NCBI RefSeq assembly: GCF_030450125.1
Contig: NZ_CP123923.1
Location: 930,001 to 994,000 of the forward strand
Reading direction: 5' to 3'
DNA from: Streptomyces sp. WP-1
Lineage (GTDB): Bacteria > Actinomycetota > Actinomycetes > Streptomycetales > Streptomycetaceae
DNA length: 64,000 nucleotides
Under the pieces are notes generated by a model, which had not been told where the DNA came from, made no database searches, and saw only the letters and a program-made list of their open reading frames with translations. The position numbers and the translations under genes were made by a program. Shown piece by piece: positions 11,089 to 37,006 of the stretch (the first letter of the stretch is position 1; each line of letters begins with the position of its first letter).

Positions 11089-11192
11089 GGCACGGCTCTC
11101 CTTGGCGAGCGCGGACGGACAGGGGCGACGACGGGGGACGGGACGCGTCGGGGGGAACGGGCGCGTCGGAGGGGTCGGAGGGTGGGGACGGG

Positions 11193-11465
11193 TCAGGCGG
11201 TGCCGTAGTCGGCCTCGACGACCTCGGCCAGCTCCAGCGGCGTCGGGTAGGCGAAGACCAGGGAGACCGGGACGTCGGCGCCGAGGATCTCCTGGAGGCG
11301 GCCGGTGATCTGGAACGCGGTGAGCGAGTCGCCGCCGGCCTCGTAGAAGTCGGTCTCGGCGGTGAGGTCGGGCAGGCGCAGCACGTCCCGGAAGATGTCG
11401 ACCAGCAGGTCGACGGTGACGGCGGGGGTGGCGACGGGGGCGGCGGTGGCGGCGTTCGGGGTCAT
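11193..11465 (-). CDS. Stand-alone peptidyl/acyl carrier protein
   Basis: This 90-residue protein is a free phosphopantetheine carrier. The attachment motif YEAGGDSLTAF places the modified serine at S47, followed by the usual helix 2/3 pattern and a VFAYPTPLELAEVV segment. The first 15 residues are an Ala/Pro/Thr-rich tail. It should be loaded by the adenylation protein encoded two genes upstream and activated by the nearby PPTase. GAAGGAG lies 8 nt before the ATG, and the gap from the PLP gene is 28 nt, so it is clearly in the same operon. The residue it carries is unknown. Confidence 0.9.
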   Translation of the reverse strand: MTPNAATAAPVATPAVTVDLLVDIFRDVLRLPDLTAETDFYEAGGDSLTAFQITGRLQEILGADVPVSLVFAYPTPLELAEVVEADYGTA

Positions 11466-11493
11466 GGCGTGGGCTCCTTCGTTTCCGTGCGGA

Positions 11494-12534
11494 TCAGATG
11501 TGGACGGTGCTGGTGGTGCCGGTACTGGTGCCGGTGTGGCTGTGGTGCGGGGTGTGCAGCCGGGCGGGGGTGTTGCCGCCCGAGACGATGGCCACGGCGC
11601 GTTCGCCGCGCCCGGCGCGCAGGGCGCCGGCCAGGGCGACGGCTCCGCTGGGTTCGGCGTCGACGCCGAGGCGGTGCAGCAGGGCGGTGGCGGCGAGGAT
11701 CTCCGCGTCGCCGACGGCGATCAGTTCGTCGACGCGGTTGCGGATGATGGGGTAGGGGACGGCTCCGGGGCTCTGGCCGCGCAGTCCGTCCGCGACGGTG
11801 GCGCAGGGCGGAAGGCGGACCGGGTGGCCGGCGGCCAGGGAGCGGGCGTAGCGCGGGGTGAGGGCGGGTTCGACGCCGACCACCCGGACCGGGTGGTCCG
11901 CGGCGGCCAGGCACAGGCCCGCGAGGAGTCCGCCGCCGCCGGTGGGGACGTACACCGTCTCCGTGCCGGGCGCGGCGGCCAGGAGTTCGAGGCCGACGGT
12001 GCCCTGTCCGGCGACGACCAGGGGGTGGTCGGAGGACGGGACGAGGACGGCTCCCTGCTCGGCCGCGAGGGCGCGGGCCCGTTCCTCCCGTTCCGCCACT
12101 CCCCCGCCCACCTGCACGGTCTCGGCGCCGAGCGCGCGGATGGCGGCGGCCTTCGACGGCATCGCGCCCGCCGCGAGGACGACGGTCAGCCGGATGCCGA
12201 GCGTCCGGGCGATCCGGGCGAGGGCGATGCCGTGGTTCCCGGAGGAGCCGGTGACGACCCGGTCGGCGCCGAGCGCGAGGACGGCGTTGGCGGCGCCGCG
12301 CATCTTGAACGAGCCGCCGAGCTGGAGGTGTTCGGCCTTCAGCAGCAGCCCCGTCCCGTGCGCGGCGGTCACCGGGCCGCGCAGCAGGGGGGTTTGGACG
12401 ATGTACGGCGCGATGCGGGAGGCGGCGGCCAGGAGGTCGGCCCTGCCCGGCGCCGCGGCGGCGGACACCGGCCGGACGGCGCCGGTCCAGGGTCCGGCCG
12501 TACCCGTGGCCGCCCCCACCTCCGTCGTGCTCAT
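11494..12534 (-). CDS. PLP-dependent threonine dehydratase/serine racemase-like enzyme
   Basis: The 346-residue fold-type II PLP enzyme has the Schiff-base lysine K77 in GGSFKMRGA, the substrate-carboxylate loop SSGNHG and the PLP-phosphate loop GGGGLLAG. These are typical of serine/threonine dehydratases and serine racemases. It has no C-terminal ACT regulatory domain, as in catabolic or biosynthetic-cluster versions. It could make a 2-oxo acid, a D-amino acid, or a beta-substituted amino acid for the assembly line; sequence alone does not decide. Its ATG overlaps the adenylation gene stop as ATGA, which ties it to that operon. The first 30 residues are a poorly conserved Ala/Gly/Thr-rich extension. 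Confidence 0.85.
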   Translation of the reverse strand: MSTTEVGAATGTAGPWTGAVRPVSAAAAPGRADLLAAASRIAPYIVQTPLLRGPVTAAHGTGLLLKAEHLQLGGSFKMRGAANAVLALGADRVVTGSSGNHGIALARIARTLGIRLTVVLAAGAMPSKAAAIRALGAETVQVGGGVAEREERARALAAEQGAVLVPSSDHPLVVAGQGTVGLELLAAAPGTETVYVPTGGGGLLAGLCLAAADHPVRVVGVEPALTPRYARSLAAGHPVRLPPCATVADGLRGQSPGAVPYPIIRNRVDELIAVGDAEILAATALLHRLGVDAEPSGAVALAGALRAGRGERAVAIVSGGNTPARLHTPHHSHTGTSTGTTSTVHI

Positions 12535-14021
12535 CCCAGCCTCCCGCCAGCCAGCACCCGGCGGTCGGCCTTGCCCGCACGCGTCGTCGGCAGCGCCTCA
12601 AGGCGTACGAAGCGGCGCGGCATCAGATGCGGGGGCAGGGTGCGGGCGAGGTGGCGGCGCAGGGTGGCGTCCGTCGTGTCCGACAGGGCGCCGGTGACAT
12701 GGGCGAGCAGGTGGACGCGGCCCAGGTCGTCGGTGTGCGGGGTGACGACCGCGCCGGTGACGCCGGGGTGGGAGAGCAGGGCGCCCTCGATCTCGGCGGG
12801 GTCGACGCGGTAGCCGCGGATCTTGAGCTGGCGGTCGGTGCGGCCGGTGTAGCGCAGTCCGCCGGGGCCCCAGTGGCCGAGGTCGCCGGTGCGGTAGAGG
12901 CGGGAGCCGGGCGGGCCGAGGGGGTCGGGGACGAACGCGGCGGCGGTGCGGGCGGGTTGGCCGCCGTAGCCGCGGGTCACTCCGGCGCCGCCGATGTAGA
13001 CCTCGCCGACCGTGCCGTCGGGGACCGGGGCGAGGCCGGCGTCCAGGACGCGGACGACGGTGCCCTCGCGCGGGGTGCCGACGAGGTCGGTGGTGGGGTC
13101 GGGGGCGGCGGGCACGCTGTGCCGGGTGGTGGTCATGGTGCACTCGGTGGGCCCGTACTGGTTGACGAGCCGGCCGGGTACGAGGCTCCGGCCGCCCGCG
13201 GCGAGGAAGGGCCGCAGGGATTCGCCGCTGGAGGCGACCAGTTCGACGCCCGCGAGGGGTTCGGTGAGGCCGGTCTGTCCGCCGAGGTGGGTGAGGAAGG
13301 ACGGGGTGACGCTGAGCAGCGCGGTCACCCCGTGGTCGCGGACGGTGGCGGCGAACTCCGCGGGGCGCAGCAGCCGGGCGCGCTCCACGATCACCAGCCG
13401 GGCGCCCGCCAGCAGCGGTACGAAGGTGTCCCGGATGGAGGCGTCGTAGCCGAGCGGCGCGGTCTGGAGGGCCACGGTGTCCGGGCCGAGGCCGAAGGCC
13501 CGTGCGGTGTCGCGGAGATAGGCGTCGAGGTGCGCGTGTTCGACGAGTACGGCGCTGGGTTCACCGGTGCTGCCTGAGGTGTGGCTGACGTAGGCGAGAG
13601 CCTGGGGGTCGGCGCCCGCGTCCGGGAGCGGGCCGTCCGGAGCTGTCTCCTGGTCCAACAGGAGGGTGGGCACGCCCAGGTCGAGCGCCGGAGCGAGGGT
13701 GGAGTGGGTGAGCAGCAGCCGGGCGCCGGAGCTGCGGACGAAGGCGGCCAGCCGTTCGCGGGGCTGGCTCACGTCCAGGGTGAGGAAGGCGGCGCCGCAG
13801 CGCAACACGGCGGCCATGGCGGCGACCGCGTCGGTGCCGTGCTCGACGGCCACGGCGCAGACGGTCTCGGGGCGGGCGCCGTGGGCGCGCAGCAGGCGGG
13901 CGATCTCCTCGGTCCGGGTGGCCAGCCGGGCGTACGACACCTCGCCGGCCGGGGTGCTCAGGGCGGTGCGGCCGGGGTGGCGCAGGGCGTGCGCGGCGAT
14001 GTCGTCGGCGACCGTGCGCAT
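12531..14021 (-). CDS. Stand-alone NRPS adenylation protein
   Basis: This 496-residue AMP-forming enzyme contains A-domain cores A1 to A10 (A7 in LYRTGDLG, A8 in RTDRQLKIRGYRVDPAEIE, A10 in TTRAGKADR) and no fused carrier domain. The A3 loop reads TSGSTGEPSAV, so the usual PKG lysine is replaced by Ser. By alignment to the PheA pocket I read the code D-A-R-S-V-S-Q-M-T plus the A10 Lys, which matches no code I know. It should load the free carrier protein encoded downstream. The nearby MbtH protein may support it. The start codon ATG shares one base with the stop of LanB-like 2 (TGATG), showing translational coupling. Confidence 0.88.
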   Translation of the reverse strand: MRTVADDIAAHALRHPGRTALSTPAGEVSYARLATRTEEIARLLRAHGARPETVCAVAVEHGTDAVAAMAAVLRCGAAFLTLDVSQPRERLAAFVRSSGARLLLTHSTLAPALDLGVPTLLLDQETAPDGPLPDAGADPQALAYVSHTSGSTGEPSAVLVEHAHLDAYLRDTARAFGLGPDTVALQTAPLGYDASIRDTFVPLLAGARLVIVERARLLRPAEFAATVRDHGVTALLSVTPSFLTHLGGQTGLTEPLAGVELVASSGESLRPFLAAGGRSLVPGRLVNQYGPTECTMTTTRHSVPAAPDPTTDLVGTPREGTVVRVLDAGLAPVPDGTVGEVYIGGAGVTRGYGGQPARTAAAFVPDPLGPPGSRLYRTGDLGHWGPGGLRYTGRTDRQLKIRGYRVDPAEIEGALLSHPGVTGAVVTPHTDDLGRVHLLAHVTGALSDTTDATLRRHLARTLPPHLMPRRFVRLEALPTTRAGKADRRVLAGGRLG

Positions 14022-16345
14022 CACTGCTCCCCCGCGTCGGCCACGGTCATGTCGACGGCCACGAAGCGGAGTTCGGAGGTGTAGCGGCTGCCCTCGTCGT
14101 CGGTGAGCCAGGCCTGCTCGGGAGTGGGCAGCATCTCGCTGACCTTGAGCCGGGCGCCGGGGTCCTTGCGGGCGAGCCTGCGGGCCGCCTTGGCGAGGAT
14201 GGTGAGGTAGACGGGGCTGTCGAAGTCGACGTAGAACGGCCGGGGTTCGGTCGGCGAGACCACGAACACGAACCGGGGCAGCTCGTGCCGGCGCTGCCAG
14301 TGCCGGGCCTTCACGAACCGGGCGGCCTCCGTCTTCTCGTCGGCGAAGCCCACCTCGGAGACAGGCAGTTGCCAGGTCTCGCGGGCCACGGTCATCCGGC
14401 CGAGGGTGATGCGCGGGGTGTGCTCGCCCTCGGGGCGCAGGGTGAAGCGGTCCATGACGCGCTGGGTGAGGGTGTTGGCGTAGGCGTCGAGCACGTCGTA
14501 CGCGGTGCCGTCGGGCAGGACCGCGGTGAGCCGCCCGGCCCGGTCCTCGACCCGGACGTCGGCGCTGAGCACGGTGCGCGGGCGGTGCGGGTCGCCGGTC
14601 TGGTCGACCAGGGCGACGTAGTGGTCCTGGGGCCGGTCCAGGGAGGGCCGGCTGCGGGTGGACCACTTCAGGGGCAGCTCCTTGGGCAGCATGGGCAGCA
14701 GGCGCGGGCCGGGGAAGTCGCGGGTGGTCTCGGCGAGCAGCTCGTCGCGGTCGGGGTGCTGGTGCACGAACAGGGAGGCGCCCATGGTGTTCAGCGCGCA
14801 GTGCATCTCGCCGAGGACGAGGTCCACGTCGCCGCGGGCGAGGGCGTCCTCGTCGGCGGCGACCACCAGTACGTCGGGGCTGATGTAGCGGGCGAGGGAC
14901 CAGCCGGCGCCGGGCTCGTCGAACTCGCGGCGGACCCGTTCGGCCAGCTCGGCGGTGGTCACCCGGACCCGGCGCACGCCCTCGGGCAGTTCGAGGACGC
15001 GGGCCCATCTGGCGCGCAGTTCCGCCTGGACGGCGTCGATGAGGTCGCCCGCGTCGGGGTGCGGGGAGGGCAGGGTGTGCAGCCACAGGGTGCCCAGGTC
15101 GACCTGTGCGCCGTCGGCGCTCAGCCGCTCGTACACGGTGTGCAGGCGGGCGCGGACGGCCTCGGCGAAGCGGTTGGTCATCCAGCGGGCGGCGGTCAGG
15201 CACAGCTGGAGCGGTTCGAGGTGGTCGAGCAGTGCCGCGCCGGTGGTGGCGGTGGCCGCGCGACGGGCGTCGGAGTACACCAACCCCCGGCAGGGCGCGG
15301 TGCGTTCGCCCTTGGCACGCTGGGCCTCGCTGTCGGTAAGCGCGGCGAATTCGGCCTCCAGCGCGGTGATCGCGGCGGTCAGCGCGGTGGCGTCCTCGCC
15401 GGCGGCGCGCACGGCGTCCCGGCCGCGTTCCAGTACGGCGAGGCGCTCCAACGCCCCTTCGCGCGCAGCCTGTTCGGGGACGCGCTCCAGGATCTCGCGC
15501 AGGGCGCGGTCGGGGTGGGTGGCGGCGGGCACCTCCAGCCGCCACTGCACCCAGCGGCGGGAGATCAGGTCCCGTACGACCTGGGTGACCTCGTCCTCGG
15601 GCAGGCCGAGTTCGGCGGCGACGGCGGGCAGGTGCCGGGTGCCGTCGCAGCGTTCCAGTACGGCGCGTTCGCGGTCGCCGATCTGCCGGGCGGGGCGGCC
15701 GGGCACCTGGACCGTGCCGTCGGCGCAGCGCACGAACGACACCCGGCGCGGCGGGATCCAGCGCATCAGCGCGCTGTCCGCGGCCAGGACCTTCGCCAGG
15801 GCGTCGATCGCCCAGCCGGAGAAGTACACCTCCCGGGCGGCGAGGAAGCCGTCGCCGGGGGTGACGGCGACGCCGCCCCGGTCGGCCAGGTCCCAGTGGC
15901 CCCAGCCGACCGGGCCGAAGAAGCCGATGGTGTCGTTCTTCACGCAGAACCGCTGCCAGTAGTGCGCGACCAGTTCCTCGCGCTGGCGCGGCATGCTGCT
16001 GCGGCTGTCCGCGGTCGGGGTCCAGCGCAGGAAGGGGGCGATGCCGGTGCGCAGGACGGCGGGGTTCTGCCAGGCGAGCGCGGCCTGGAAGCGGGGCCGG
16101 GCGGCGATCTCCTGGAGGTAGCGCGCGGTGTCCACGGCGGCGGTCGCGAGGTCTTCCGTGAAGGCGGCCCACTCGGGCCCGGCCAGCTCGGTGCCGGGGC
16201 CGAACTTGTCGGCGGCCTCGGCGAGTCCGGGCGGGGCGAGGCGCAGCACGCCGTCGGCGGGGAAGCCGGGGCCGCGGAGCGCGAACTGCTCCCACAGCCG
16301 CCAGCCTCCGCCCGGCAGCAGGACAGGTGCGTGCTCGTCCGACAT
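14021..16345 (-). CDS. LanB-like protein 2, glutamylation domain only (PEARL-like)
   Basis: The 774-residue paralogue of the 8806-11088 protein shares all its main blocks: WRLWEQFALRG, SMPRQREELVAHYW, KNDTIGFFGPVGWG and VFVVSPTEPRPFYVDFDS. Again there is no C-terminal elimination domain, so it cannot be a complete LanB dehydratase. It is the first gene of the five-gene minus-strand operon, with AAGGAG 7 nt before the ATG, and is coupled to the adenylation gene. Having two copies in one operon suggests two successive tRNA-dependent steps or a heterodimer (inference). A 98-bp stretch (15915-16012) is identical to 10667-10764 in the sister gene. The divergent promoter region to MbtH is 16346-16589. 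Confidence 0.82.
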   Translation of the reverse strand: MSDEHAPVLLPGGGWRLWEQFALRGPGFPADGVLRLAPPGLAEAADKFGPGTELAGPEWAAFTEDLATAAVDTARYLQEIAARPRFQAALAWQNPAVLRTGIAPFLRWTPTADSRSSMPRQREELVAHYWQRFCVKNDTIGFFGPVGWGHWDLADRGGVAVTPGDGFLAAREVYFSGWAIDALAKVLAADSALMRWIPPRRVSFVRCADGTVQVPGRPARQIGDRERAVLERCDGTRHLPAVAAELGLPEDEVTQVVRDLISRRWVQWRLEVPAATHPDRALREILERVPEQAAREGALERLAVLERGRDAVRAAGEDATALTAAITALEAEFAALTDSEAQRAKGERTAPCRGLVYSDARRAATATTGAALLDHLEPLQLCLTAARWMTNRFAEAVRARLHTVYERLSADGAQVDLGTLWLHTLPSPHPDAGDLIDAVQAELRARWARVLELPEGVRRVRVTTAELAERVRREFDEPGAGWSLARYISPDVLVVAADEDALARGDVDLVLGEMHCALNTMGASLFVHQHPDRDELLAETTRDFPGPRLLPMLPKELPLKWSTRSRPSLDRPQDHYVALVDQTGDPHRPRTVLSADVRVEDRAGRLTAVLPDGTAYDVLDAYANTLTQRVMDRFTLRPEGEHTPRITLGRMTVARETWQLPVSEVGFADEKTEAARFVKARHWQRRHELPRFVFVVSPTEPRPFYVDFDSPVYLTILAKAARRLARKDPGARLKVSEMLPTPEQAWLTDDEGSRYTSELRFVAVDMTVADAGEQ

Positions 16346-16589
16346 CGCGTGCTCCTTCCGAATGGGGTGCGCGGGCAATCGCGTGGCCCGGGGTTTCCGG
16401 GGTGCCGGGCGGCCCGCGACCGAAGAGCACGGTCCCGCGTCGGGGCGGTGGGTCACCAGGGAAGTTCCGGCAGCAACGGGTGCCACCACTGCGGCGTGTT
16501 CGTCCCTGACCGGGCGGGGCGGGGGCCGGGCACTCTTGCGTCGCCGGACCCTGATCCGCGTCCGGCCCATCACCTGCGGGAGGTTCACC

Positions 16590-16841
16590 GTGACGCAATC
16601 CGACTCCGCGAACGGCACCGGCGGCGACGAGGTCCGCCCCGGCGCCGAGGACGTGTATCTCGTGGTGCGCAACGACGAGGAGCAGTACTCGATCTGGCGG
16701 GCGGACCGCGAGCTGCCGGCCGGCTGGCACCGGGAGGGCCGCGAGGGCAGCCGGCAGGAGTGCCTGGACCACATCGACGCCGTCTGGACGGACATGCGCC
16801 CGCTGAGCCTGCGCCGCCGGCTCGCCGGGGCCGATGTCTGA
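16590..16841 (+). CDS. MbtH-like protein
   Basis: The 83-residue protein shows the MbtH signature: YSIWRADRELPAGW, then a Leu (in ECLDHIDAV) and WTDMRP near the C-terminus. MbtH proteins bind the adenylation domains of NRPSs and are often needed for their folding or activity. It is most likely a partner of the NRPS A domains at 29.7-43.3 kb and possibly of the free adenylation protein at 12531-14021. The N-terminal 15 residues are a non-conserved Gly/Ser/Asp extension. The GTG start has GGGAGG 6 nt upstream. It opens a two-gene unit with the PPTase. Confidence 0.92.
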   Translation: MTQSDSANGTGGDEVRPGAEDVYLVVRNDEEQYSIWRADRELPAGWHREGREGSRQECLDHIDAVWTDMRPLSLRRRLAGADV

Positions 16842-17745
16842 GGTCCGGCCGGCCCTGGTGCCGGCCAGGCCGGCCAACGCACCGCCGACAGCGGGCGCGC
16901 ATGACGTACCGTCAATTCGGATGTCCGCAAAAGGGGTTGGTCTACTGACGACGGCGGAGTCGGGTGACGTGCTCACGGTCCCCGGCACGTCACCGGAACC
17001 GAACGGCTCACCGCTGTCGGCCGCGCCCCCCGGCCCCCTGTGCCCCGCTCTCCTGGACCTGCCCGGCCCGCAGTACCCGCCGTACCCCGTCGGCCCCCGG
17101 CCGCTGCGCGGTCCGCTGGAGCTGTATCTGACCGAGGTCGGCAGCCAGGACGACCGGTCGCTGCTGCGCGCCCAGGAGTTGCTGGACGCGCAGGAGCGGG
17201 CGCGGGCCCGTGCGTTCCGGCGGCCCCGGGACCGGGACGCGTACGTGATCGCGCATGCCACGCTGCGCGCCCTGCTCAGCCCCCTGCTGGGTGTCCCGGC
17301 GGACGAGCTGCCGCTGACGCGGGAGCCGTGCGCGGGCTGCGGGGGCCCGCACGGGCGGCCCGCGCTGCGCACCTCGGGGGTGCACTTCTCCCTGTCGCAC
17401 AGCGGGGACCTGGTACTGGTGGCGCTCGCCGGCGCCCCGGTCGGGGTCGATGTGGAGGGCGTGGCCACCGTGGAGGCGGTGCGCAGCGCGCAGTGCGCGC
17501 TGCACGCGGCGGAGGTGGCGGAGCTGGCCCGGCTCCCGGCACACGAGCGGCAGGCGGCCTTCACCCGGACCTGGGTGCGCAAGGAGGCGTATCTCAAGGG
17601 GCTGGGGACGGGGCTGGTGCGCGATCCGGCCCTGGACCACGTCGGCACCGGACCACGGCCGGTGTCGCCGTCGCCGGACTGGAACCTGCGGGACGTGCTC
17701 GTCCCGGCGGGGTACGCGGCGGCCGTGGCGCTGCGACGGGAGTGA
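16834..17745 (+). CDS. Sfp-type 4'-phosphopantetheinyl transferase
   Basis: The protein carries the two PPTase metal/CoA motifs: VGVDVE and the later WVRKEAYLKGLGTGL block. This marks a Sfp-type enzyme that converts apo carrier proteins to the holo form. Here the likely clients are the free carrier protein and the four NRPS carrier domains. A Cys pair (CAGCGGPHG) sits mid-protein, as in many Streptomyces homologues. The ATG at 16834 overlaps the MbtH stop, giving 303 residues. The first 60 or so residues look unconserved, so the ATG at 16921 (274 residues) is possible, although it has no good ribosome site. A strong terminator follows. Confidence 0.88.
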   Translation: MSEVRPALVPARPANAPPTAGAHDVPSIRMSAKGVGLLTTAESGDVLTVPGTSPEPNGSPLSAAPPGPLCPALLDLPGPQYPPYPVGPRPLRGPLELYLTEVGSQDDRSLLRAQELLDAQERARARAFRRPRDRDAYVIAHATLRALLSPLLGVPADELPLTREPCAGCGGPHGRPALRTSGVHFSLSHSGDLVLVALAGAPVGVDVEGVATVEAVRSAQCALHAAEVAELARLPAHERQAAFTRTWVRKEAYLKGLGTGLVRDPALDHVGTGPRPVSPSPDWNLRDVLVPAGYAAAVALRRE

Positions 17746-17986: not shown

Positions 17987-18727
17987 GTGACCGCCCCGGA
18001 ACCCACCATCGTCGCCACCTCCGGAGGACATCGCGCCGCCGCACGCACCCGGGTGCTCTTCGACGCCCTGGTCCAGCACGCGGTCGATCTCTCCGGTGTG
18101 CACGGCAGGCGACCGCGCATCCTGTACGTCGGCACCGCCATCGGGGACGCCGAGCACGTCACCGCGCGGATGTCGGAGGCGGCCCGGGTGGCGGGCTTCG
18201 ATCTGACACCCCTGCACCTGTTCCCCATGCCGAACGTCGAGGACGTCGAGGGCACGGTCCTGGACCACGACGTGGTCTGGGTGATGGGCGGCTCGGTGGC
18301 GAACCTGCTCGCCGTGTGGCGGGTGCACGGCCTGGACGCGGTCATGCGGCGGGCCTGGCGGGCGGGAGTGGTCCTCGCCGGGGTCAGCGCGGGTTCCATC
18401 TGCTGGTTCGAGGGCGGCGCGACCGACTCCTACGGGCCCGAACTGCGCCCGGTGACCGATGCGTTGGGGCTGCTGCCGTACGGCAACGGGGTGCACTACG
18501 ACTCCGACCCGGGCCGGCGCCCGCTGATCCACCGGCTGGTCGCCGACGGCACCCTGCCCACGGCGCACTGCACCGACGACGGGGTGGGCCTGGTCTACCG
18601 GGGCACCGAACTGGTCGAGGCCGTCGCGGAGTTGCCGGACAAGGCCGCGTACGTGGTGCGCCGCGAGGGCGGGCGGGCCGTGGAGGAGCGCATCACACCC
18701 CGGCTGCTGCCGGCCCCCGGGGTGTGA
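17987..18727 (+). CDS. Peptidase E-like S51 family serine peptidase
   Basis: This 246-residue protein matches the S51 dipeptidase E/cyanophycinase-like family. The nucleophile elbow reads GVSAGSICWF, with the catalytic Ser in SAG. An early glycine-rich ATSGGH strand and the VMGGSVANLLAVW segment, which aligns with the (G)GG(N)T region of the family, are also present. Peptidase E cleaves N-terminal Asp dipeptides, so it could be housekeeping or could trim a leader peptide here; the latter is only an inference from position. There is no ribosome site. A TACGAT -10-like box (17975-17980) ends 6 nt before the GTG, so the mRNA is probably leaderless. The gene is convergent with the LuxR pair. Confidence 0.82.
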   Translation: MTAPEPTIVATSGGHRAAARTRVLFDALVQHAVDLSGVHGRRPRILYVGTAIGDAEHVTARMSEAARVAGFDLTPLHLFPMPNVEDVEGTVLDHDVVWVMGGSVANLLAVWRVHGLDAVMRRAWRAGVVLAGVSAGSICWFEGGATDSYGPELRPVTDALGLLPYGNGVHYDSDPGRRPLIHRLVADGTLPTAHCTDDGVGLVYRGTELVEAVAELPDKAAYVVRREGGRAVEERITPRLLPAPGV

Positions 18728-18752: not shown

Positions 18753-19373
18753 TCAGATCAGTCCGTGGCGCACCGCGCGCGCCACCGCGTGGGCCCGGTT
18801 GCGGGCGCCGAGCCGGGCCATGATCTCGTAGACGACGTTCTTCACGGTGTGCTCGGAGCAGTGCAGCAACTGCGCGATGCCCGCGTTGCCGTGGCCCTCC
18901 GCCATGAGCCGCAGCACGGACATCTGGCGGCTCGTCAAGGACGGTGGCCGGTCCTCGTGCGCGGGGTGGCCGCCGGGTCCCGGGCCGGTGGTCAGCAGGT
19001 GGGACAGCTCCGGGTAGGGGATGCTCGGGTGCGGCGCCCCGGCGCGGCGGACGGCCGCCGTGAGGCTCTCCTCGGTGAGGTCCGCCCGGCGCAGCACGAC
19101 GGCTCCGGCGCGCAGGGCCTGGAGCAGCCCGGCGCGGCCCACCGTGTCGCACACCAGCAGCAGCGGCCCGGGCAACCGGGTGGCGCGCAGGGCCCGTTCG
19201 GCGTCGTCGGTGACGACGACGGTGACGGTCCCGGGCTGCCCGTGGCCGATCGCGCAGTCGAGTCCGGCGCGGCGGGCGAGTTCGCGTACCCGGTCCGCGT
19301 GCCGTGACGGCTGGACGCGCAGGGGCAGGATCGTGGTCACTCCGCCGGGTGCGGCGGTCAGGGTGGCGGTCAC
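18753..19373 (-). CDS. LuxR-family regulator B of a coupled pair
   Basis: The 206-residue protein has a C-terminal LuxR helix-turn-helix (LTSRQMSVLRLMAEGHGNAG, then SEHTVKNVVYEIMARLGARN). Its N-terminal half of about 130 residues resembles a worn receiver domain without the usual acidic phospho-acceptor pocket. It is therefore likely an atypical, phosphorylation-independent regulator, probably acting on the surrounding biosynthetic genes. Its GTG overlaps the upstream regulator stop as GTGA, so the two are made in a fixed ratio and may form a heterodimer (inference). Confidence 0.82.
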   Translation of the reverse strand: MTATLTAAPGGVTTILPLRVQPSRHADRVRELARRAGLDCAIGHGQPGTVTVVVTDDAERALRATRLPGPLLLVCDTVGRAGLLQALRAGAVVLRRADLTEESLTAAVRRAGAPHPSIPYPELSHLLTTGPGPGGHPAHEDRPPSLTSRQMSVLRLMAEGHGNAGIAQLLHCSEHTVKNVVYEIMARLGARNRAHAVARAVRHGLI

Positions 19374-19972
19374 AGCAGGCCCGCTCTCAGTGCGTAGGCG
19401 ACGGCGTGGGCGCGGTTGCGCAGTCGGAACCGCTGGGTGATGTCGTGCACGACGGTGGTCACGGTGCGGGGCGAGTAGGCGAGTTGCTGGGCGATCTCCG
19501 CCGTCTCGTGCCCGTCGGCGACCAGGCGCAGTACCGAGCGTTCGCGGTCGGAGAGCGATCCGCCGGCCCAGCCGCGCTCGGCGCCCTCGGGCCGGTCGAG
19601 GACCTGTTCGAGCAGGTCGGTGGGGACGGTGCAGTCGTCCTGGGCGGCGGCCAGCACCGCGTGGGCCAGGCGGGACGCGTCCGCCTCGCGGCGCAGCAGC
19701 AGGCCCCGGGCGCCGGCGGCGAGGGCGTGCAGGGCGTCTCCGGAGGCGAGCGCGCCGGCCACCAGGACGACGGCGGGACGCGTCAGGTGGGCGCGGGTGG
19801 TGCGCACCATGTCGAGTTCGGCCGGGCCGAGCCGGTCCACGGTGAGCACGGCGACCCGGGCGTTGGCGGGCTCGCACACGGTGAGCTGCGGGCAGGCGAG
19901 CAGGGTACTGCGGGTGCCGGCCTCCAGGACCGGGTCGAGGGCGACCACACCGACGGGTACGGGGACTCCCAT
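19370..19972 (-). CDS. LuxR-family regulator A of a coupled pair
   Basis: The 200-residue protein has a C-terminal LuxR helix-turn-helix (LSDRERSVLRLVADGHETAE, then SPRTVTTVVHDITQRFRLRN) and a degenerate receiver-like N-terminal half. It resembles its downstream neighbour in size and in the RNRAHAV..A.R.GL tail, so the pair probably arose by duplication. AAGGAG lies 6 nt before the ATG. It sits between the peptidase E gene and the LanM-like operon and reads away from the repeat-rich region upstream of lanM, which may carry its operator. Its targets cannot be read from sequence. Confidence 0.82.
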   Translation of the reverse strand: MGVPVPVGVVALDPVLEAGTRSTLLACPQLTVCEPANARVAVLTVDRLGPAELDMVRTTRAHLTRPAVVLVAGALASGDALHALAAGARGLLLRREADASRLAHAVLAAAQDDCTVPTDLLEQVLDRPEGAERGWAGGSLSDRERSVLRLVADGHETAEIAQQLAYSPRTVTTVVHDITQRFRLRNRAHAVAYALRAGLL

Positions 19973-20573: not shown

Positions 20574-23500
20574 GTGACTGAGACCGCCAGCCTCCCGACT
20601 CCCCGGAGCGCCGGCCTGCCGCTCGCCTGGTGGGCCCCGGCGCTTTCCCTCGCGGAGCGCCTCGCCGCCCCCGGCCGACCGGCCGCGCCCGCCGACCTTG
20701 ACGCCCCCGCCCGCGCCCCCTGGGCCGCCGGGGACGCGGACGGCTTCGCGCTGCGGCTGGCGCACCTCGGGGTGGACGACGCCACGGCGGCGGCCCTCGC
20801 GGCGGAGCCCGCCGAGCGGCTCGCCGCCCGCGCCGCCGAGCCCGGCTGGGTCCGGTACGTGGAGGCGGCCCTGGACGCCGCCCCCGAGTACCGCGTGGAG
20901 CCGGCCACGGACGGGACGGGTGCCGAGGCCTTCGCCCCCGTCGTACGACCGCTCGTCGCCCCGGCCGCCGCCCGCCTCGCCGAGCTGCTGCCGGGCATGG
21001 CCGCCACCGAACGGAGCGTGTGGCAGGCCGAGTTCGGCACCTGGCTGACCTCGCAGCTGGTGCGGCTGGCCGCCCGCACCCTCGTACGGGAACTCGCCGG
21101 GGCCCGGCGCGCCGGGCGCCTCGCGGGAGCGACCTCCCGGGAGCGGTTCGCCTCCTTCGTCGCCGGCGCGGGCGCCCGGCGGGGGCTCGGCGAGCTGTTC
21201 GCCGCCTACCCGGTGCTGGCCCGGATGCTCGGACAGACCGCCCTGGACGCCCTGGACGCGGCGGCCGAACTGGCCGCCCGCTTCCAGGCCGACCGGGACG
21301 ACCTGGTCGCCGTCCTCCTCGACGGCCGCGAGCCGGGCGCCCTCACCCGCGTCGAACTCGGGCTCGGCGACGCCCACCAGGGCAACCGGTCGGTGGCCGT
21401 CCTGCGCTTCGCCGACGGGGCCCGCGTGGTGTACAAGCCGCGCCCGCTCGGGCAGCACGCCCTGCTGGACGAGCTGGCGGCCTGGATGGACACCAAGGTG
21501 CCCGACCTCCCGCTGCGCACCGCCCGCACCCTGCGCCGGGAGGGTTACGGCTGGCTGGAGTTCGTGTCCCACCGCTGGTGCCGCTCGGTGACCGAGACCG
21601 ACGCCTTCTACCGCCGCCAGGGCGTGCTGCTCGCGCTGCTCTACGCGGTGGACGGCGCCGACATGCACTACGAGAACGTCATCGCCTGCGGCGACCAGCC
21701 GGTCCTGGTGGACGCCGAGACACTGCTGCACACCGGGCTCGGGCAGGCCATGACGGCCGGCGCCGACCCGGCGGCGGAGGCCCTGCACACCTCCGTGCAC
21801 CGCACCTGCCTGCTGCCCCACCTGCTGATCGGCGAGCACGGCGCGCTGGACATCTCCGCGCTCGGCCGCTCCACCGACGGCACCTTCCCCAGCGAGGGCC
21901 TGCACTGGGCGGACAGCGGCCTGGACACCATGCGCGCCGTACGGGGGCCGCTGCTCAGCCCCGCCGCGCAGAACCAGCCGCTGCCCGACGGCCGCCCGCT
22001 GGACGGCGCCGACCACCGGGCCGCCCTGCTCGACGGCTTCCGCACGGCGTACGCGGCCATCGCGGCGCACGGCGGCGAACTGACCGGCGAGGACGGCCCG
22101 TTGGCGACGGGGGCCGACAGCCCGGCGCGGCTGATCGCCCGCGCCACCCGGCTGTACGCGACCCTGCTGGAGGAGTCCACGCATCCGGCGCTCCTCGGTG
22201 ACGCGCTCGCCCGGGACGGGGTGTTCGCCGTGCTGTGGACCGAGTCCGAGCACGATGGGGCGCGCTCGTTGCTCATCGAGCACGAGACGGCCGACCTGTG
22301 GCGCGGCGACGTCCCCCTGTTCACCCATCGGCCGTCCGGAACAGGGGTCCGGACGGCCGACGGGACCTGGCTGGAGGATGTGCTGCCGGAGGCGAGCCTG
22401 GCCGCGGTGCGCAAGAAGATCGCACGGATGGACGAGATCGACTGCCGCGACCAGGAGTGGATCGTCTCGGCGGCCCTGGCCGCCCGGGGCGCCTGCGACC
22501 CGGCGGACCGGCCGAGGTCGGCGCTCGCGGTCGCGCCCGTCCCGGCCGTCGTGCCCGACGCCTCCCGGCTGCTGGCCGCGGTGTGCGGGATCGCCGACGA
22601 CATCGCCGCCCGTGCGGTACGCGACGGCGGGCGCGCCAACTGGCTCGGTCTGGAAAGGGTTTCGGGCCCGCACTGGGCGGTCCTGCCGATGGGCGCCGGG
22701 CTGGCGCAGGGCTACTGCGGGGTCGCGCTCTTCCTCGCCCACACCGGCGCGCTGACCGGCGCCGACCGGTACACCGCGCTGGCCCGGGAGGCGGTACGGC
22801 CGCTGCCCGCGCTGCTCAAGGCCCTGGCCGCCGACCCCGAGCTGGGCGCGGCGGCGGGCCCCGGCGCCTACGACGGTCTCGGCGGTATCTGCTACGCCCT
22901 GGTCCGGCTGTCGGCGCTGCTGGGCGAGGAGTTGGCGCAGTGCCTGCCGGACGCGCTCACCGCGCTCGCCCACGCGGCGGCCGGGTGTACGGAACCCGGG
23001 CTGGCCGGGGGTACGGCAGGGGCGCTGGCCGCCGCCGTCGCCGTGCACGAGGCGGCCGGGACCCCGGGCGCGCTGGAGCTGGCGGACGCCCTGGCGGACC
23101 TGCTGTGCCAGGCGGGCCCCGTCGAGGACGCCGGTTTCGCGGACGGCGCCGCCGGGATCGGCTGGGCGCTGCTGCGGTACGCCGCCGCCCGCCCGGAGCG
23201 GTCCGCGGCGCATGCGAGCGCGGGCCGGGACCTGCTCCACGGCGCGGCCCGGCGAGCGGGGGACGCGGACACGGATCCGTCGTGGACGCGGGGGCTCGCC
23301 GGCACGGCGGCCGCCGCCTCGGCCCTCGCCGAACTCCCCGCCTCCCTGGCCGAGTTCTCGGCCCGGCTGCGGGACGCCGGGGTCGGTCCCGACCTCAGCC
23401 TCGGTCAGGGTGCCCTCGGCACGCTGGACGCCCTCACGGCCCTGGCCGGGCGGGGCGACACCCCGGCCGCCGAAGCCCTGACCCTGCGCACCGGCCAGGC

Positions 23501-23672
23501 ACTCGCGTTCGTCGAGGCGCAGGGCCACCGCTGCGCCACCCCCGACCACGTTCCCTCCCCCGGACTGCTGACCGGCCTCTCCGGCATCGGCTACGGACTG
23601 CTCCGCCTGGCCCACCCCGACACCGTGCCCTCCGTCCTGCTCCTGGGACACCCCGGCCGGTACGGCAACTGA
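20574..23672 (+). CDS. LanM-like enzyme with intact dehydratase and degenerate cyclase
   Basis: The 1032-residue protein has class II lanthipeptide synthetase architecture. The dehydratase half (about 190-640) keeps GLGDAHQG (D266, H268), YKPRPL (K288), GADMHYEN (D363, H365, N368) and VDAET (D380, E382), so Ser/Thr phosphorylation and elimination should work. The LanC-like half (about 665-1032) keeps the fold (SPGLLTGLSGIGYGLLRLA) but has lost the zinc and acid/base residues: the expected AHG is AQG (Q712), WCxG is WTRG (T905), and CHG is GQG (G944, Q945). It should dehydrate but not make lanthionine rings. The start is uncertain: I chose the GTG at 20574, but an in-frame ATG at 20538 is possible and neither has a strong ribosome site. 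The precursor-like gene follows 68 nt downstream. Confidence 0.85.
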   Translation: MTETASLPTPRSAGLPLAWWAPALSLAERLAAPGRPAAPADLDAPARAPWAAGDADGFALRLAHLGVDDATAAALAAEPAERLAARAAEPGWVRYVEAALDAAPEYRVEPATDGTGAEAFAPVVRPLVAPAAARLAELLPGMAATERSVWQAEFGTWLTSQLVRLAARTLVRELAGARRAGRLAGATSRERFASFVAGAGARRGLGELFAAYPVLARMLGQTALDALDAAAELAARFQADRDDLVAVLLDGREPGALTRVELGLGDAHQGNRSVAVLRFADGARVVYKPRPLGQHALLDELAAWMDTKVPDLPLRTARTLRREGYGWLEFVSHRWCRSVTETDAFYRRQGVLLALLYAVDGADMHYENVIACGDQPVLVDAETLLHTGLGQAMTAGADPAAEALHTSVHRTCLLPHLLIGEHGALDISALGRSTDGTFPSEGLHWADSGLDTMRAVRGPLLSPAAQNQPLPDGRPLDGADHRAALLDGFRTAYAAIAAHGGELTGEDGPLATGADSPARLIARATRLYATLLEESTHPALLGDALARDGVFAVLWTESEHDGARSLLIEHETADLWRGDVPLFTHRPSGTGVRTADGTWLEDVLPEASLAAVRKKIARMDEIDCRDQEWIVSAALAARGACDPADRPRSALAVAPVPAVVPDASRLLAAVCGIADDIAARAVRDGGRANWLGLERVSGPHWAVLPMGAGLAQGYCGVALFLAHTGALTGADRYTALAREAVRPLPALLKALAADPELGAAAGPGAYDGLGGICYALVRLSALLGEELAQCLPDALTALAHAAAGCTEPGLAGGTAGALAAAVAVHEAAGTPGALELADALADLLCQAGPVEDAGFADGAAGIGWALLRYAAARPERSAAHASAGRDLLHGAARRAGDADTDPSWTRGLAGTAAAASALAELPASLAEFSARLRDAGVGPDLSLGQGALGTLDALTALAGRGDTPAAEALTLRTGQALAFVEAQGHRCATPDHVPSPGLLTGLSGIGYGLLRLAHPDTVPSVLLLGHPGRYGN

Positions 23673-23740
23673 CCACACCGCTCGTCTCCGCCTCCGCCCC
23701 CGCGCCCACCCGCGCGGGACCACTTGAAGGGGATCACCTC

Positions 23741-23959
23741 ATGGACAAGAACTTCGCCGCCTCCGCCGCCACCGCCGCCGACGCCACGGAGACCGCCGCC
23801 GAGATCGCCGCCGACGAGCAGGACGCGGCCGGTGGCATCACCCTCAAGGGCCGCAACCGCGCCTGCGCCCGCGCCCGGGTGCTGGCCGGAATGGTCCTCA
23901 CCAGCGGCCTTGTCATCACGCTGAGCACCATGGACACCTCGGTCTCCGCCCCCCGGTAG
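23741..23959 (+). CDS. LanA-like precursor peptide, one Cys
   Basis: This 72-residue peptide follows the LanM-like gene, with GAAGGGGATC about 8 nt before its ATG. Residues 1-32 are Ala/Asp/Glu-rich and end in AAGG (31-32), like a class II leader with a double-Gly cleavage site. The putative 40-residue core has one cysteine (C42), a basic stretch (KGRNRACARAR), a hydrophobic run at about 47-61 and a Ser/Thr-rich tail with T60, S62, T63, T66, S67 and S69. A single Cys allows at most one thioether ring, which fits the degenerate cyclase. I do not recognise the core. No dedicated LanT or LanP protease is encoded next to it. A terminator hairpin follows. Confidence 0.7.
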   Translation: MDKNFAASAATAADATETAAEIAADEQDAAGGITLKGRNRACARARVLAGMVLTSGLVITLSTMDTSVSAPR

Positions 23960-24095: not shown

Positions 24096-27011
24096 ATGCG
24101 TTCCCATGCGCCTTCCCTGGTCGGGCGGGGTCCCCAGCTCCACCTCCTCGAACGTGCGCTGAGCGGCGCTCAACAGGGACGCGGCGGTGTGGTCTTCCTG
24201 GTCGGCGAGGCCGGGGTCGGCAAGTCGCGGCTCGCGGCCGAGGTGGTCGGCGGCGCGCTCGACGCCGGTATGCGGGTACTGCGCGGCCGCAGCAGCACCA
24301 CGGGCCCGGCGGTGCCGTTCCGGCCATTGACCGAGGCGCTGATGTCCCTGTTCCGGGGCGGCGAGTCCATGGACGACCTGGCTCTGGGCCCGTACCGGCC
24401 GGTGCTCGGACGGCTGATTCCCGACTGGGACACCGGCGAGCGCGAGAGCAGCTCCATGGTCATCCTGGGCGAGGCGGTGCTGCGGCTGCTGATCGCGGCC
24501 GGGCGCGGCCAGGGCCAGCTGCTGCTCCTGGAGGACCTGCACGACGCCGACCCCGAGACGCTCGGCGTCCTCGAATACCTCGTGGACAACCTGGAGTACA
24601 CGCCCGTCCTGCTCCTCGCCACCGTGCGCACCGACTTCAGCGACGCCCTGGACCTGGCCCAGTCGGCGCGCCGCCGCGGCGCCGCCACCCTGCTGGAGAT
24701 CCCGCCGCTGACCCGGGGGCAGGCGGACGAGATGGTCGCGGCCCAACTGGGCGTGGCCGACCCGCGGGAGGTGCCGGAGACGGTGCTCCAGCGGCTGTGG
24801 GAGGACAGTTCCGGCAGCCCGTACCTGGTCGAGGAACTGCTCCAGACCATGATCGGGGCGGGCACCCTGGTGCAGGGCCAGGACGGCTGGCGGGCGATCG
24901 GGGATCTGCGCAGCGATGTCTCCTCCACGCTGGCGCGGGACATCCTGCGCCGTATCGACCGGCTGGGCGCGCAGGGCCTGACCCTGCTGTCGGCGGCCGC
25001 CGTGCTCGGCCGCCGCTTCCCGCTGACCGTGCTCCAGCGGATGAGCGGCGTGGACGACCGCGCGCTGCTCAGCCATCTGCACGCGGGCGTCGCGGCCCGG
25101 CTGGTGATCCCCGACGAACCGGCCCCCGACTGGTACTCCTTCCGCCACTCGCTGACCGTGGAGGCCCTGTTCACCCAGATGACACCCGGCCAGCGCGCCG
25201 ATCTCGCGCGCCGGGGCGCGGAGGCGGTCGAGGAGCTGCACCCCGAACTGGGCGGCGACTGGTGCGCGTTGGCCGCGGGGCTGCGCGGCGAGGCCGGGGA
25301 CCAGGGCGCGGCCGGGCTGCTGTTCGCGGACGCGGGCGGCCGGGCTCTTTCGGCCGGTGCGCTGGGCTCCGCCGTGACCCTGCTCAGCCGCGCCGAGAAC
25401 CTGCTGGCCGAGGCCGGGGACGCGCAGGGGCGGGCCGCGGTCCTGGAGAACCTGCTGCCCGCGCTCGCCGAGGCCGGCGACTTCGCCCGCGCCTTCGAAC
25501 TCGCCGAGGATCTCCACCTGTTGGGCGGCTCCGGGCTCAGCCCCGTCCGGCTCGCCACGCTGCACGCCCGGCTGGCCAAGGTCGCCCACACGGCGGGGCG
25601 GTGGAGCGACGGCAACCGGCAGGTGGCCCGCGCCCGTGAGGTGCTGGCGGCCTCGCCGGACGAGACGACCGCCGCCACCGTCGATGTGACGGCCGCCTAC
25701 CTGGCCCTCGACACACCGGGCCCCGACCGCACCCAGCACGCGGAGAAGCTGGCCCGCGCGGCCGCCGACACCGCCGAACGCCACGGGCTGCCCGTGGTGG
25801 CCTGCCAGGCACAGGAGTTGCTCGCCACCGTGGCCCGCGAGCGGGACCCGGAGGAGTCCGAGGCGATGCTCCGCCAGGCCCTCGCCACCGCCGAACGCCA
25901 CCGGCTGCCCCTGCAACGGATGTACGCGGCCACCCGGCTCGGCGGCAACGCCTGGCTCGCCGAGGGCGACACCACGGGCCTGCTGGCGGCGCGCGAGGAG
26001 GCGCTGCGGCTCGGCTCGGTCAACATCGTGCACACCGTCGACGGCATCCTCGTACTCGACGCCGTGCTGCGGGGCGACGACGACACCGCCCGCGCGACGG
26101 CCGCCGAGTGCCTGGCCGTCGTACGACGGCTGCGGCTCGCGCCCGCCGTGCGGTACGTCCTGATGGCGCAGGCCGTCCTGGCGGCGCACCACGCCGACCG
26201 TGCCGGGATGGAGGCGGCGCTGGCCGCGTTCGCGCAGTGGGACGGGGCCGGTTCGCAGGAGGAGCCGCTGAGCCACGGGCTGGCCCGGGCGTTCTGTGCG
26301 CTGCTGGAGGAGGACCGGGAGCTGGCCCGGGAGGATCTGGGCACGGTGCTGGCGCTGGAGGCGGACAACCCCTCGACCTACCATCTCAGCGGCACCCACG
26401 GCATGGTGCTGCTGCTGGACGTGCTCGCCGGGCGCGCGGACCGCACCCGGCACGCGGAGATCACCGCCACCGCGATGGCCCGGATGCGCTGGAACCGGCA
26501 CTTCGTGCTGCTCACGGAGGCCGTGCTGCTGGGCCGGGAGGGCGCGGGGGCCGAGGCGGCGCGCGCGGTCGAGGCGGCGCGGGCGGTGGCGGAGCCGTAT
26601 CCGCTGGCCCGGCATCTCGGGCTGCGGCTGATCGCGGACGCGGCGCAGCAGGACGGCTGGGGCGATCCGGTCAGCTGGCTGCGGCAGGCGGAGCACTACT
26701 TCCACGAGCGGGACGTCCCGGCCGTCGCGGGTGCCTGCCGGGCGGGGCTGCGCCGGCTCGGCGCCCCCGTGCGCCAGCACCGCACCGGGAGCAGCGGTAT
26801 CCCGGACCAGCTGCGCGCCCAGGGCGTCACGGTCCGGGAGTTCGAGGTGTTCCGGCTGCTCGCGGAGCGGCTGTCCAACAAGGACATCGCCGACCGGCTG
26901 TTCATATCCCCCCGTACGGCGGAGAAGCACATCGCCAGTCTGATCACGAAGACGGGGGCGGCCAACCGCGCGGATCTGTGCGCGCGTTCGGCCGCCCTGC
27001 GCGATTCCTAG
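24096..27011 (+). CDS. LAL-type LuxR regulator with AAA ATPase domain
   Basis: The 971-residue protein begins with an ATPase module: LVGRGPQL, Walker A GEAGVGKS and Walker B LLLLEDLHDAD. A long helical, TPR-like middle region follows. It ends in a LuxR helix-turn-helix (VTVREFEVFRLLAERLSNKD, then ISPRTAEKHIASLI). This is the LAL (large ATP-binding LuxR) class, frequent pathway activators in Streptomyces biosynthetic clusters. It probably controls the LanM or NRPS operons, or both. The ATG at 24096 lacks a ribosome site; a TATCAT box just upstream suggests a leaderless transcript. Its stop codon lies in an inverted repeat shared with the convergent MFS gene. Confidence 0.9.
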   Translation: MRSHAPSLVGRGPQLHLLERALSGAQQGRGGVVFLVGEAGVGKSRLAAEVVGGALDAGMRVLRGRSSTTGPAVPFRPLTEALMSLFRGGESMDDLALGPYRPVLGRLIPDWDTGERESSSMVILGEAVLRLLIAAGRGQGQLLLLEDLHDADPETLGVLEYLVDNLEYTPVLLLATVRTDFSDALDLAQSARRRGAATLLEIPPLTRGQADEMVAAQLGVADPREVPETVLQRLWEDSSGSPYLVEELLQTMIGAGTLVQGQDGWRAIGDLRSDVSSTLARDILRRIDRLGAQGLTLLSAAAVLGRRFPLTVLQRMSGVDDRALLSHLHAGVAARLVIPDEPAPDWYSFRHSLTVEALFTQMTPGQRADLARRGAEAVEELHPELGGDWCALAAGLRGEAGDQGAAGLLFADAGGRALSAGALGSAVTLLSRAENLLAEAGDAQGRAAVLENLLPALAEAGDFARAFELAEDLHLLGGSGLSPVRLATLHARLAKVAHTAGRWSDGNRQVARAREVLAASPDETTAATVDVTAAYLALDTPGPDRTQHAEKLARAAADTAERHGLPVVACQAQELLATVARERDPEESEAMLRQALATAERHRLPLQRMYAATRLGGNAWLAEGDTTGLLAAREEALRLGSVNIVHTVDGILVLDAVLRGDDDTARATAAECLAVVRRLRLAPAVRYVLMAQAVLAAHHADRAGMEAALAAFAQWDGAGSQEEPLSHGLARAFCALLEEDRELAREDLGTVLALEADNPSTYHLSGTHGMVLLLDVLAGRADRTRHAEITATAMARMRWNRHFVLLTEAVLLGREGAGAEAARAVEAARAVAEPYPLARHLGLRLIADAAQQDGWGDPVSWLRQAEHYFHERDVPAVAGACRAGLRRLGAPVRQHRTGSSGIPDQLRAQGVTVREFEVFRLLAERLSNKDIADRLFISPRTAEKHIASLITKTGAANRADLCARSAALRDS

Positions 27012-29685: not shown

Positions 29686-29689
<4 letters not shown>
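28343..29689 (-). CDS. Cytochrome P450 with repeat-encoded N-terminal extension
   Basis: This 448-residue P450 has the I-helix oxygen motif AGGETT (288-293), the ExxR pair EALR (327-330) and the heme loop [10 protein letters not shown] with cysteine ligand C398. It lacks a membrane anchor, as expected for a bacterial class I enzyme that needs ferredoxin partners; none is encoded nearby. Its ATG overlaps the NRPS stop as ATGA, so it probably oxidises an NRPS-bound residue or the released peptide. The first 45 residues are unusual: a Pro/Thr/Gly/Asn/Ala tract (PTGNAA repeats) encoded by six 18-bp tandem units. I take this as a flexible tail with no clear role. Confidence 0.9.
29575..29682. repeat. 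18-bp tandem repeat inside P450 gene, six copies
   Basis: Six 18-nt units start at 29575, 29593, 29611, 29629, 29647 and 29665. The plus-strand consensus is TACCCGTAGGGGCCGCGT. Translated on the minus strand they give six-residue steps of the type PTGNAA. The core CCGTAGGGGC also occurs in the 22-bp array at 20128-20301. Confidence 0.85.
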
Positions 29690-36951
<7,262 letters not shown>

Positions 36952-37006
36952 GAGGGCACTCCGATCTGAACTCATGGGGAGGAAGCGGGTGTCGGGCGGG
37001 AGGCCC

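Follow-up and report, generated by a model that had tools for sequence, protein, structure and literature searches.

Class II lanthipeptide synthetases (LanM) join a DUF4135 dehydratase, with its kinase and elimination residues, to a LanC-type cyclase with a Cys-Cys-His (CCH) zinc site and a catalytic His, and their precursors have a core in which Cys occurs together with the Ser/Thr needed for (methyl)lanthionine. The closest described departures concern enzymes or precursors in which part of this equipment is absent. According to the sections of PMC10676384 that deal with it, carnazolamide, a dehydrazole made with CcaM, contains eight dehydroamino acids and no lanthionine; there, the cyclase-like domain of CcaM is needed for dehydration, and CcaM acts on azoles from YcaO and does not require a leader. 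A passage on clusters encoding both LanM and LanKC states that their LanM-associated precursors lack Cys (PMC7268733), and an excerpt of a survey lists 47 peptides beside a DUF4135 protein whose cyclase has no defined triad (“D-Unk”), as well as 179 single-Cys peptides (PMC11251773). Here we analyze a LanM gene in a stretch of 64,000 nucleotides (the window) from Streptomyces sp. WP-1 (contig NZ_CP123923.1, positions 930,001 to 994,000 of the forward strand), which is part of a 7.62 Mb single-contig genome whose closest relatives found are Streptomyces. With a small precursor gene (LanA) and a LAL regulator it forms a three-gene cassette, LanM-LanA-LAL, and we give a probability of about 50% to the reading that this is a regulatory cassette in which a dehydration-only LanM makes a linear peptide containing dehydroalanine and dehydrobutyrine (Dha/Dhb). 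This reading starts from what is observed directly, namely the genes and their synteny, the residue losses, the conservation of leader and core, and the predicted architecture of the regulator; comparison with relatives supports the dehydration-only part, and the signaling role is one that we infer. The synthetase has the following features:

20574..23672, + strand: LanM synthetase, GTG start, 1032 amino acids, no internal stops
21207..22328, + strand: dehydratase domain, residues 212-585 (DUF4135, 384 bits), with D266, H268, K288, D363, H365, N368, D380, E382, R519 and T525 present
22689..23642, + strand: LanC-like domain, residues 706-1023, fold positions kept (LANC_like, 75 bits)
23142..23144, + strand: D857, at the catalytic-His column (GFADGAAGI against GFSHGLTGI of LicM2)
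23286..23288, + strand: T905, at the first zinc Cys (CylM C875), by profile alignment
23403..23408, + strand: G944-Q945, at the zinc Cys-His pair (CylM C911-H912), by profile alignment

The protein matches the LanM family model TIGR03897 with 626 bits against a cut-off of 304; its AlphaFold model is only fair (pLDDT 72.6) and was used for the fold alone. In a database search with the window LanM, 7992 candidates were scored and 831 passed 1e-10; the best 120 of these, together with the window LanM, are the 121 aligned proteins to which all counts out of 121 refer. D266, H268, K288, D363, H365, N368 and E382, which a preliminary description of this DNA had listed as retained, are identical in 120-121 of the 121, the lone exception being a gap. 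The dehydratase residues given for CylM in the relevant part of PMC4550811 (D252, H254, K274, D347, H349, N352, D364, R506, T512) map onto D266, H268, K288, D363, H365, N368, D380, R519 and T525 of the window protein, none of which varies across a 23-row alignment. In it, D380 rather than E382 corresponds to CylM D364 (both are invariant), and R519 and T525 are the counterparts of R506 and T512. The N-terminal half is, in its kinase and elimination residues, a class II dehydratase.

The C-terminal half has neither the Cys-Cys-His zinc site nor the catalytic His of the class, their places being taken by T905, G944, Q945 and D857. The preliminary description had counted four cyclase residues as replaced, and four indeed are. 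Its three zinc-ligand replacements hold, as the pairing with the CylM ligands bears out, but its fourth residue was mis-mapped: the His column is 857, occupied by Asp, and not that of Q712 (22707-22709), which sits in the first Gly motif at a column where the ordinary LanMs examined have S, T, Q or D. A base error, named in that description as a possible refutation should homologues have normal zinc sites, is ruled out because relatives at 85-93% identity carry the same loss. LanMs at 40-48% identity carry WCxG and LCHG at the T905 and G944-Q945 columns. The full triad occurs in 0/121 proteins, with C905 in two and C944 in one of the listed 120.

Beyond that description, the loss proves common to a whole clade, and the LAL to be a constant partner. 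We surveyed 70 genome loci (L numbers below). The triad is missing in all 53 readable members of the Streptomyces/Streptacidiphilus group, and 11 relatives outside this group have CCH at the same columns; five loci are cut or fragmented, so that the triad is unreadable (L055, L073, L076, L096, L100), and L098 (Metabacillus) has lost it independently. A tree of the dehydratase part alone, built by a quick method from 48 chosen rows and with long branches among the distant ones, places the zinc-less group on a single branch (SH-aLRT 99) with zinc-bearing L079 (CCH) as its sister (support 100), and has two triad changes in total, the second being L098. Judged by this tree, the zinc triad is lost once, on the Streptomyces-group branch. 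Forty-three LanC columns hardly vary among zinc LanMs; of these, the two with the ligand Cys have been given up in the zinc-less rows, and so, for the most part, has H945 (His in 11/26). The LanC-like half nevertheless keeps its fold, as the preliminary description had it: the fold positions retain their residue in at least 20 of the 26 zinc-less rows, except position 988, where Gly has become Ala in 14. The catalytic His is replaced (by R, E, N, F, D or T) in 15 of the 23 zinc-bearing relatives read, which suggests that ring formation was of little importance already before the zinc site went; the Kibdelosporangium-type zinc LanMs and L012 keep it. Within the genus, 14 of 61 genomes drawn match the window LanM at E ≤ 1e-100, three (window included) at 77% identity or more and the other 11 at 42-52%.

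The independent loss in L098 (Metabacillus crassostreae; LanM at about 9787-12781) left T, K and D at the ligand columns. There, three identical precursor copies with two Cys precede the LanM, so Cys is retained, unlike in the Streptomyces case.

The second gene of the cassette encodes the presumed substrate:

23741..23959, + strand: precursor peptide LanA, 72 amino acids, one Cys (C42)
23822..23845, + strand: leader motif DAAGGITL (corresponding to [HD]PxGxIxL of relatives), L35 invariant and G31 nearly so
23864..23866, + strand: C42, the only Cys, in the conserved leader helix (NRAC-ARARVLAG)
23891..23956, + strand: predicted core, residues 51-72 after VLAG, 22 amino acids with 8 Ser/Thr and no Cys, its boundary drawn by analogy

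The peptide does have the single Cys that the preliminary description ascribed to it. Its supposed GG-type leader end is better read, in the alignment with precursors of zinc-bearing relatives, as part of a PAG-x-I-x-L leader motif, which the ordinary LanM precursors in our set show as SPAGPL. After this motif R44, L48 and LAG are conserved, and it is after LAG that the outgroup peptides become variable, in a C-terminal tail; this places C42 in the leader helix. Of nine outgroup rows, only that of the zinc-bearing sister L079 has Cys at this column; the remaining eight have Gly, Ala, Thr or Trp. The predicted core, MVLTSGLVITLSTMDTSVSAPR, offers the Ser/Thr of a class II lanthipeptide core without its Cys, if the boundary is drawn correctly.

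No Pfam family matched LanA. The protein database contains 304 relatives, the best 120 of which are unnamed or “hypothetical protein”. We found relatives at 54 further loci, giving 57 copies with that of the window, a count that leaves out L002 and L005 (the window itself), L006 and L025 (the peptide of L050 again) and distant precursors above E 1e-8. T66, V68 and S69 are kept in 57/57 copies and S67 in 55/57, and DTSVSxP ends all of the best 120 of the 304 database relatives, a selection in which core uniformity is an upper bound. By these alignments the LanA core hardly changes among the relatives found. A minus-strand LanA copy with a different N-terminus and the same core lies downstream of the LAL in L045, L046, L062, L076 and L096; L062 and L096 carry both copies.

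The precursors of the zinc-bearing relatives show that poverty in Cys is not confined to the zinc-less clade. Twenty such precursors (from L079, L081, L082, L084, L085, L087, L092, L093, L097, L101-L103, L105-L107, L131-L133, L136 and L138), chosen by leader motif and position with Cys not a criterion, have no Cys after the leader in 14 cases, one in six (L085, L092, L093, L105, L107, L136) and two in none. They are not independent (L102/L131 and L132/L133/L138, for example, are closely related), and there is doubt about the L085 peptide. No precursor was recognized at the zinc-bearing loci L083, L099, L135 and L137, and L134 and L079 are most likely one and the same contig. Recurring tails in these peptides are DLPWTTFTVPM, DLPYTTFTVPL and IDVPYTTGTITVC. 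A zinc LanM with a precursor of four Cys does occur, in L104; no LAL was found in the 5.4 kb after it. In L082, L084, L087 and L097, the dehydratase parts of LanM are 91-95% identical (four pairs compared), while the peptide tails differ strongly behind the same leader, a pattern as expected of specificity types. Ordinary LanM precursors had two or more core Cys in 13/13 cases, but we set this count and its Fisher test aside because the control-locus precursors had been picked by a two-Cys filter, which makes the comparison circular; two ordinary loci, L122 and L123, yielded no precursor.

The third gene is the regulator:

24096..27011, + strand: LAL regulator, 971 amino acids from the conserved MRSHAP start (AAA_16/STAND ATPase, tetratricopeptide repeat (TPR)-like superhelix, LuxR helix-turn-helix)

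It has AAA_16 and GerE domains, and its predicted model (pLDDT 86) contains 27 helices between residues 364 and 887. The structural matches of the model include a STAND protein with a TPR sensor (6mfv, rank 1) and MalT (8bob, rank 11), with low overall TM-scores. No TPR family scored above the Pfam cut-off in the middle part, which is TPR-like in the model only. The protein has the N-terminal ATPase, helical-repeat middle and C-terminal LuxR helix-turn-helix that define LALs. By position directly after LanM or its peptide, a LAL is present in 65 of the 70 loci; of the other five, four (L055, L071, L073, L100) break off at the LanM gene or close to it, and the fifth, L098, is an unrelated Bacillus-type locus. 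Among nine loci fetched later, seven have a LAL (one convergent), and L134 and L137 end too early. By comparison, 13 of 14 ordinary LanM loci have no LAL-like gene, although for L117 and L118, with only about 0.4-0.5 kb beyond LanM, this absence covers one side only; the remaining locus, L115, has a 29% identical one 2.1 kb away.

In the mechanism that we propose for the cassette, LanM would read the LanA leader ([HD]PxGxIxL...R...LAG) and turn core Ser/Thr into Dha and Dhb by phosphorylation and elimination. No thioether ring would be closed, and the LanC domain would persist as a scaffold that perhaps binds the peptide or supports dehydration. Once the leader is removed by some protease, the adjacent STAND-TPR-LuxR regulator would respond to the linear dehydrated peptide as a ligand or signal, and this LAL would control neighboring clusters, in the window a non-ribosomal peptide synthetase (NRPS) operon at 29686-43300. 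Core dehydration and the leader boundary are what we infer from the alignments. That no ring forms appears likely, given a core free of Cys and a LanC domain stripped of its zinc ligands and His. Mutants of lacticin 481 synthetase in the zinc ligands reportedly keep dehydration, which favors this reading. The preliminary description had left the choice between a linear dehydroamino acid-rich peptide and one cyclized by another enzyme. The former is the best reading, and a stronger one than first argued, since the only Cys lies in the leader and the cores of zinc-intact relatives have no or one Cys; the latter has no support nearby, since the genome searches, which covered LanC and YcaO but not LanD, placed neither a second LanC nor any YcaO in the window and the zinc-type LanC of the genome lies about 2.9 Mb away. 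Sensing of the dehydrated peptide by the LAL seems to us a reasonable idea, if one that falls somewhat short of even odds.

Several observations weigh against this reading. Within the 121 proteins, His persists at column 857 in 37 and at column 945 in 34, and the replacements are not uniform, with 8-11 different letters at each of the four columns. Two or three His stand at the three ligand columns in 24/121, HHH in three that also have His857. An altered metal site is thus possible in some members of the zinc-less clade, though not in the T-G-Q enzyme of the window. C42 is present in 57/57 copies, a figure owed in part to the Cys-anchored register of the rows, and in the zinc-bearing sister L079; without such an anchor, the motif RN..C is found in all of the best 120 of the 304 database relatives. 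Being so constant, C42 presumably does something. Eight zinc-bearing relatives keep the catalytic His, most of them with Cys-poor cores where the precursor was seen. No exporter or protease was identified within the minimal trio, and regulators are often located in RiPP (ribosomally synthesized and post-translationally modified peptide) clusters without sensing the product. Finally, class III enzymes cyclize without zinc ligands, as a section of PMC10604976 describes for ThurKC, for which reason zinc loss alone is no proof of lost cyclization and the Cys-free core is the stronger argument.

Side by side with these counts, nine of 54 non-CCH genome rows have two or more His at the ligand columns, L064 having HHH. 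L064 and P0084-type relatives, with His at all three columns, may have a different metal site.

The linear dehydrated peptide might instead be a secreted bioactive product, electrophilic or membrane-active, with the LAL only activating the pathway. LALs commonly activate clusters, the core combines a hydrophobic stretch with 8 Ser/Thr, and the trio adjoins NRPS genes and a major facilitator superfamily (MFS) pump. Most antibiotics are not nearly invariant in sequence, however, as this core is across the relatives found, and no lanthipeptide exporter was recognized in the gene lists of the outgroup loci L081, L082 and L093, where most genes were unscanned. We regard this explanation as on the unlikely side.

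A metal-independent or His-liganded cyclase, in which the LanC domain would close a ring from C42 and a dehydrated residue, is rather unlikely in our view. It would account for the constancy of C42 and for the His-rich ligand columns of 24/121 relatives, and it has a precedent in ThurKC, which by the account excerpted from PMC10604976 cyclizes with its zinc ligands changed to Ser, Phe and Asp and its His to Asp, the residue that the window LanM has at 857. Yet the four columns have no fixed replacement, and C42 aligns with non-Cys leader positions in eight of nine outgroup rows. Further, nine of the best 120 of the 304 LanA relatives have no Ser/Thr within the ten residues before the Cys, so that a ring of the usual Ser/Thr-to-Cys kind would have to run the other way.

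The neighborhood of the cassette in the window includes NRPS genes:

29686-43300: two NRPS genes (NRPS-1), each with two condensation, two adenylation (A) and two carrier domains, and with a thioesterase in the first gene; a cytochrome P450 and an MFS pump lie alongside

NRPS-1, P450 and MFS pump adjoin the Streptomyces trio in 38, 38 and 39 of the 70 loci, short contigs counted. This frequency might suggest a hybrid NRPS-RiPP pathway in which the peptide and the neighboring NRPS product are linked or processed together, the more so as a sub-clade has LanB-like, peptidyl carrier protein (PCP), A-domain and pyridoxal phosphate (PLP) enzyme genes and the outgroup locus L101 has stand-alone A-domain genes close by. 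We consider such a hybrid improbable and have rejected it, since the same peptide occurs with another NRPS or with none. In nine loci the trio stands beside a second system (NRPS-2), whose members are at least 79% alike and about 34-46% like NRPS-1, and the Streptomyces core is unchanged beside either; L094 has no NRPS in 23 kb and L078 none in 19 kb. Outside Streptomyces, tblastn with the window NRPS gave no match in the outgroup loci L081, L092 and L093 and only 24-28% AMP-binding-type matches in Kibdelosporangium-type loci. Keeping its own sequence amid changing neighbors, the trio has the look of a module, and a regulatory module is the simplest kind to assume.

Upstream of the trio (8806-11465, 11494-14106, 14021-16348, 16834-17745) are genes for two LanB-like proteins, a stand-alone PCP, a PLP enzyme, a stand-alone A domain and a phosphopantetheinyl transferase (PPTase). 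LanB-like and PPTase genes were found in 22 of the 70 loci, the PLP enzyme in 19 and the PCP in 18, the flanks being mostly too short for the second LanB; the set may serve tRNA- or carrier-dependent amino acid transfer. A peptidase S51 gene (17990-18727), present in 34/70 loci and directly upstream of LanM in several NRPS-2 loci, is a candidate for processing of the peptide. It is followed by two short adjacent LuxR-type genes (18753-19972), found in 43 and 45 of the 70 loci.

That LanM is a decaying relic or non-catalytic scaffold is very improbable. Its LanC part does evolve faster relative to the dehydratase in zinc-less pairs (median rate ratios by distance bin 1.34-1.74) than in zinc pairs (0.61-1.28), few of which fall into the close-distance bins. 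In the nine closest relatives tested (LanC identity of at least 72%), however, dN/dS is 0.14-0.31 for the dehydratase, whose catalytic residues are kept, and 0.29-0.43 for LanC; nine more distant relatives gave less reliable values of 0.33-0.75 and 0.34-0.64, respectively. We have rejected plain decay on the strength of this purifying selection.

Least credible is a cyclase acting in trans: although the genome encodes a LanC with WCYG and LCHG motifs, this lies about 2.9 Mb from the window and the predicted core offers it no Cys. The distant genes in question are:

L108 6718-8008 and L109 5322-7883: the genome's separate zinc-motif LanC and RamC-like gene

The RamC-like LanKC-type gene is at 7.55 Mb, not near the trio. 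As for YcaO, the gene closest to the window stands about 420 kb outside it.

The window LanM shares its fold and dehydratase residues with CylM and LicM2, and differs from them in having no zinc ligands or catalytic His and a predicted core free of Cys. As far as the parts of PMC10676384 on it go, LanMbC/CcaM resembles it in fusing a DUF4135 dehydratase to a LanC-type domain without zinc ligands, of class III type in LanMbC, and, if our reading holds, in making dehydroamino acids without lanthionine. Unlike LanMbC/CcaM as portrayed there, the window has a conserved leader motif, and zinc was lost within a lineage whose sisters keep it; with no YcaO near, we reject identity with a dehydrazole system. 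Closer in another respect are the LanM-LanKC clusters. In the zinc-bearing outgroup loci L102, L131, L132, L133 and L138, a LanKC (RamC-type) gene lies a few kb from the LanM-LanA-LAL trio and the cores are Cys-free, so that the remark in PMC7268733 probably covers these L102-type relatives; the passage concerned mentions neither zinc loss nor a LAL partner, and the window trio has no LanKC nearby. In the “D-Unk” excerpt of PMC11251773 there is neither a family of this kind nor a leader/core split, a partner regulator or an event of loss. CA_C0082 of Clostridium acetobutylicum, which the section of PMC10301443 devoted to it ties to Agr peptide quorum sensing, is likewise LanM-like and without zinc motifs, but it belongs to a family of 670-728 amino acids that also has no dehydratase residues, whereas the window dehydratase is complete.

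On the regulatory side, the predicted architecture of the LAL is like that of MalT-like STAND regulators. RRNPP-type systems likewise have a small peptide gene adjoining a TPR-type DNA-binding protein, an arrangement known here from adjacency; RRNPP peptides are unmodified, and the window set by contrast includes a LanM. Quite tentatively, LanM-LanA-LAL could be a widespread actinobacterial signaling module, a RiPP counterpart of RRNPP quorum sensing with a dehydrated linear ribosomal peptide as STAND-TPR-LuxR ligand, plugged into at least two unrelated NRPS clusters, whose cyclase half decayed stepwise once the ring was unneeded. If the peptide is indeed the LAL ligand, it would give a direct handle to switch on silent Streptomyces NRPS clusters. 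The analysis further leads one to expect a family of linear Dha/Dhb peptides, which would be discarded by mining tools that insist on Cys in the core.

We recognized no description of the LanM-LanA-LAL set in the open-licence literature, which is no proof of absence, and the novelty of its separate parts is lowered by what the cited portions of PMC10676384, PMC7268733 and PMC11251773 contain. Descriptions of the family linked to a LAL, of its leader/core logic, of a single loss flanked by zinc-bearing sisters and of module behavior did not turn up in that literature. Within this one syntenic family, zinc-bearing sisters, His-replaced members and full losses occur together, with Cys-poor substrates throughout, and so record the change of a lanthionine synthetase into a dehydratase.

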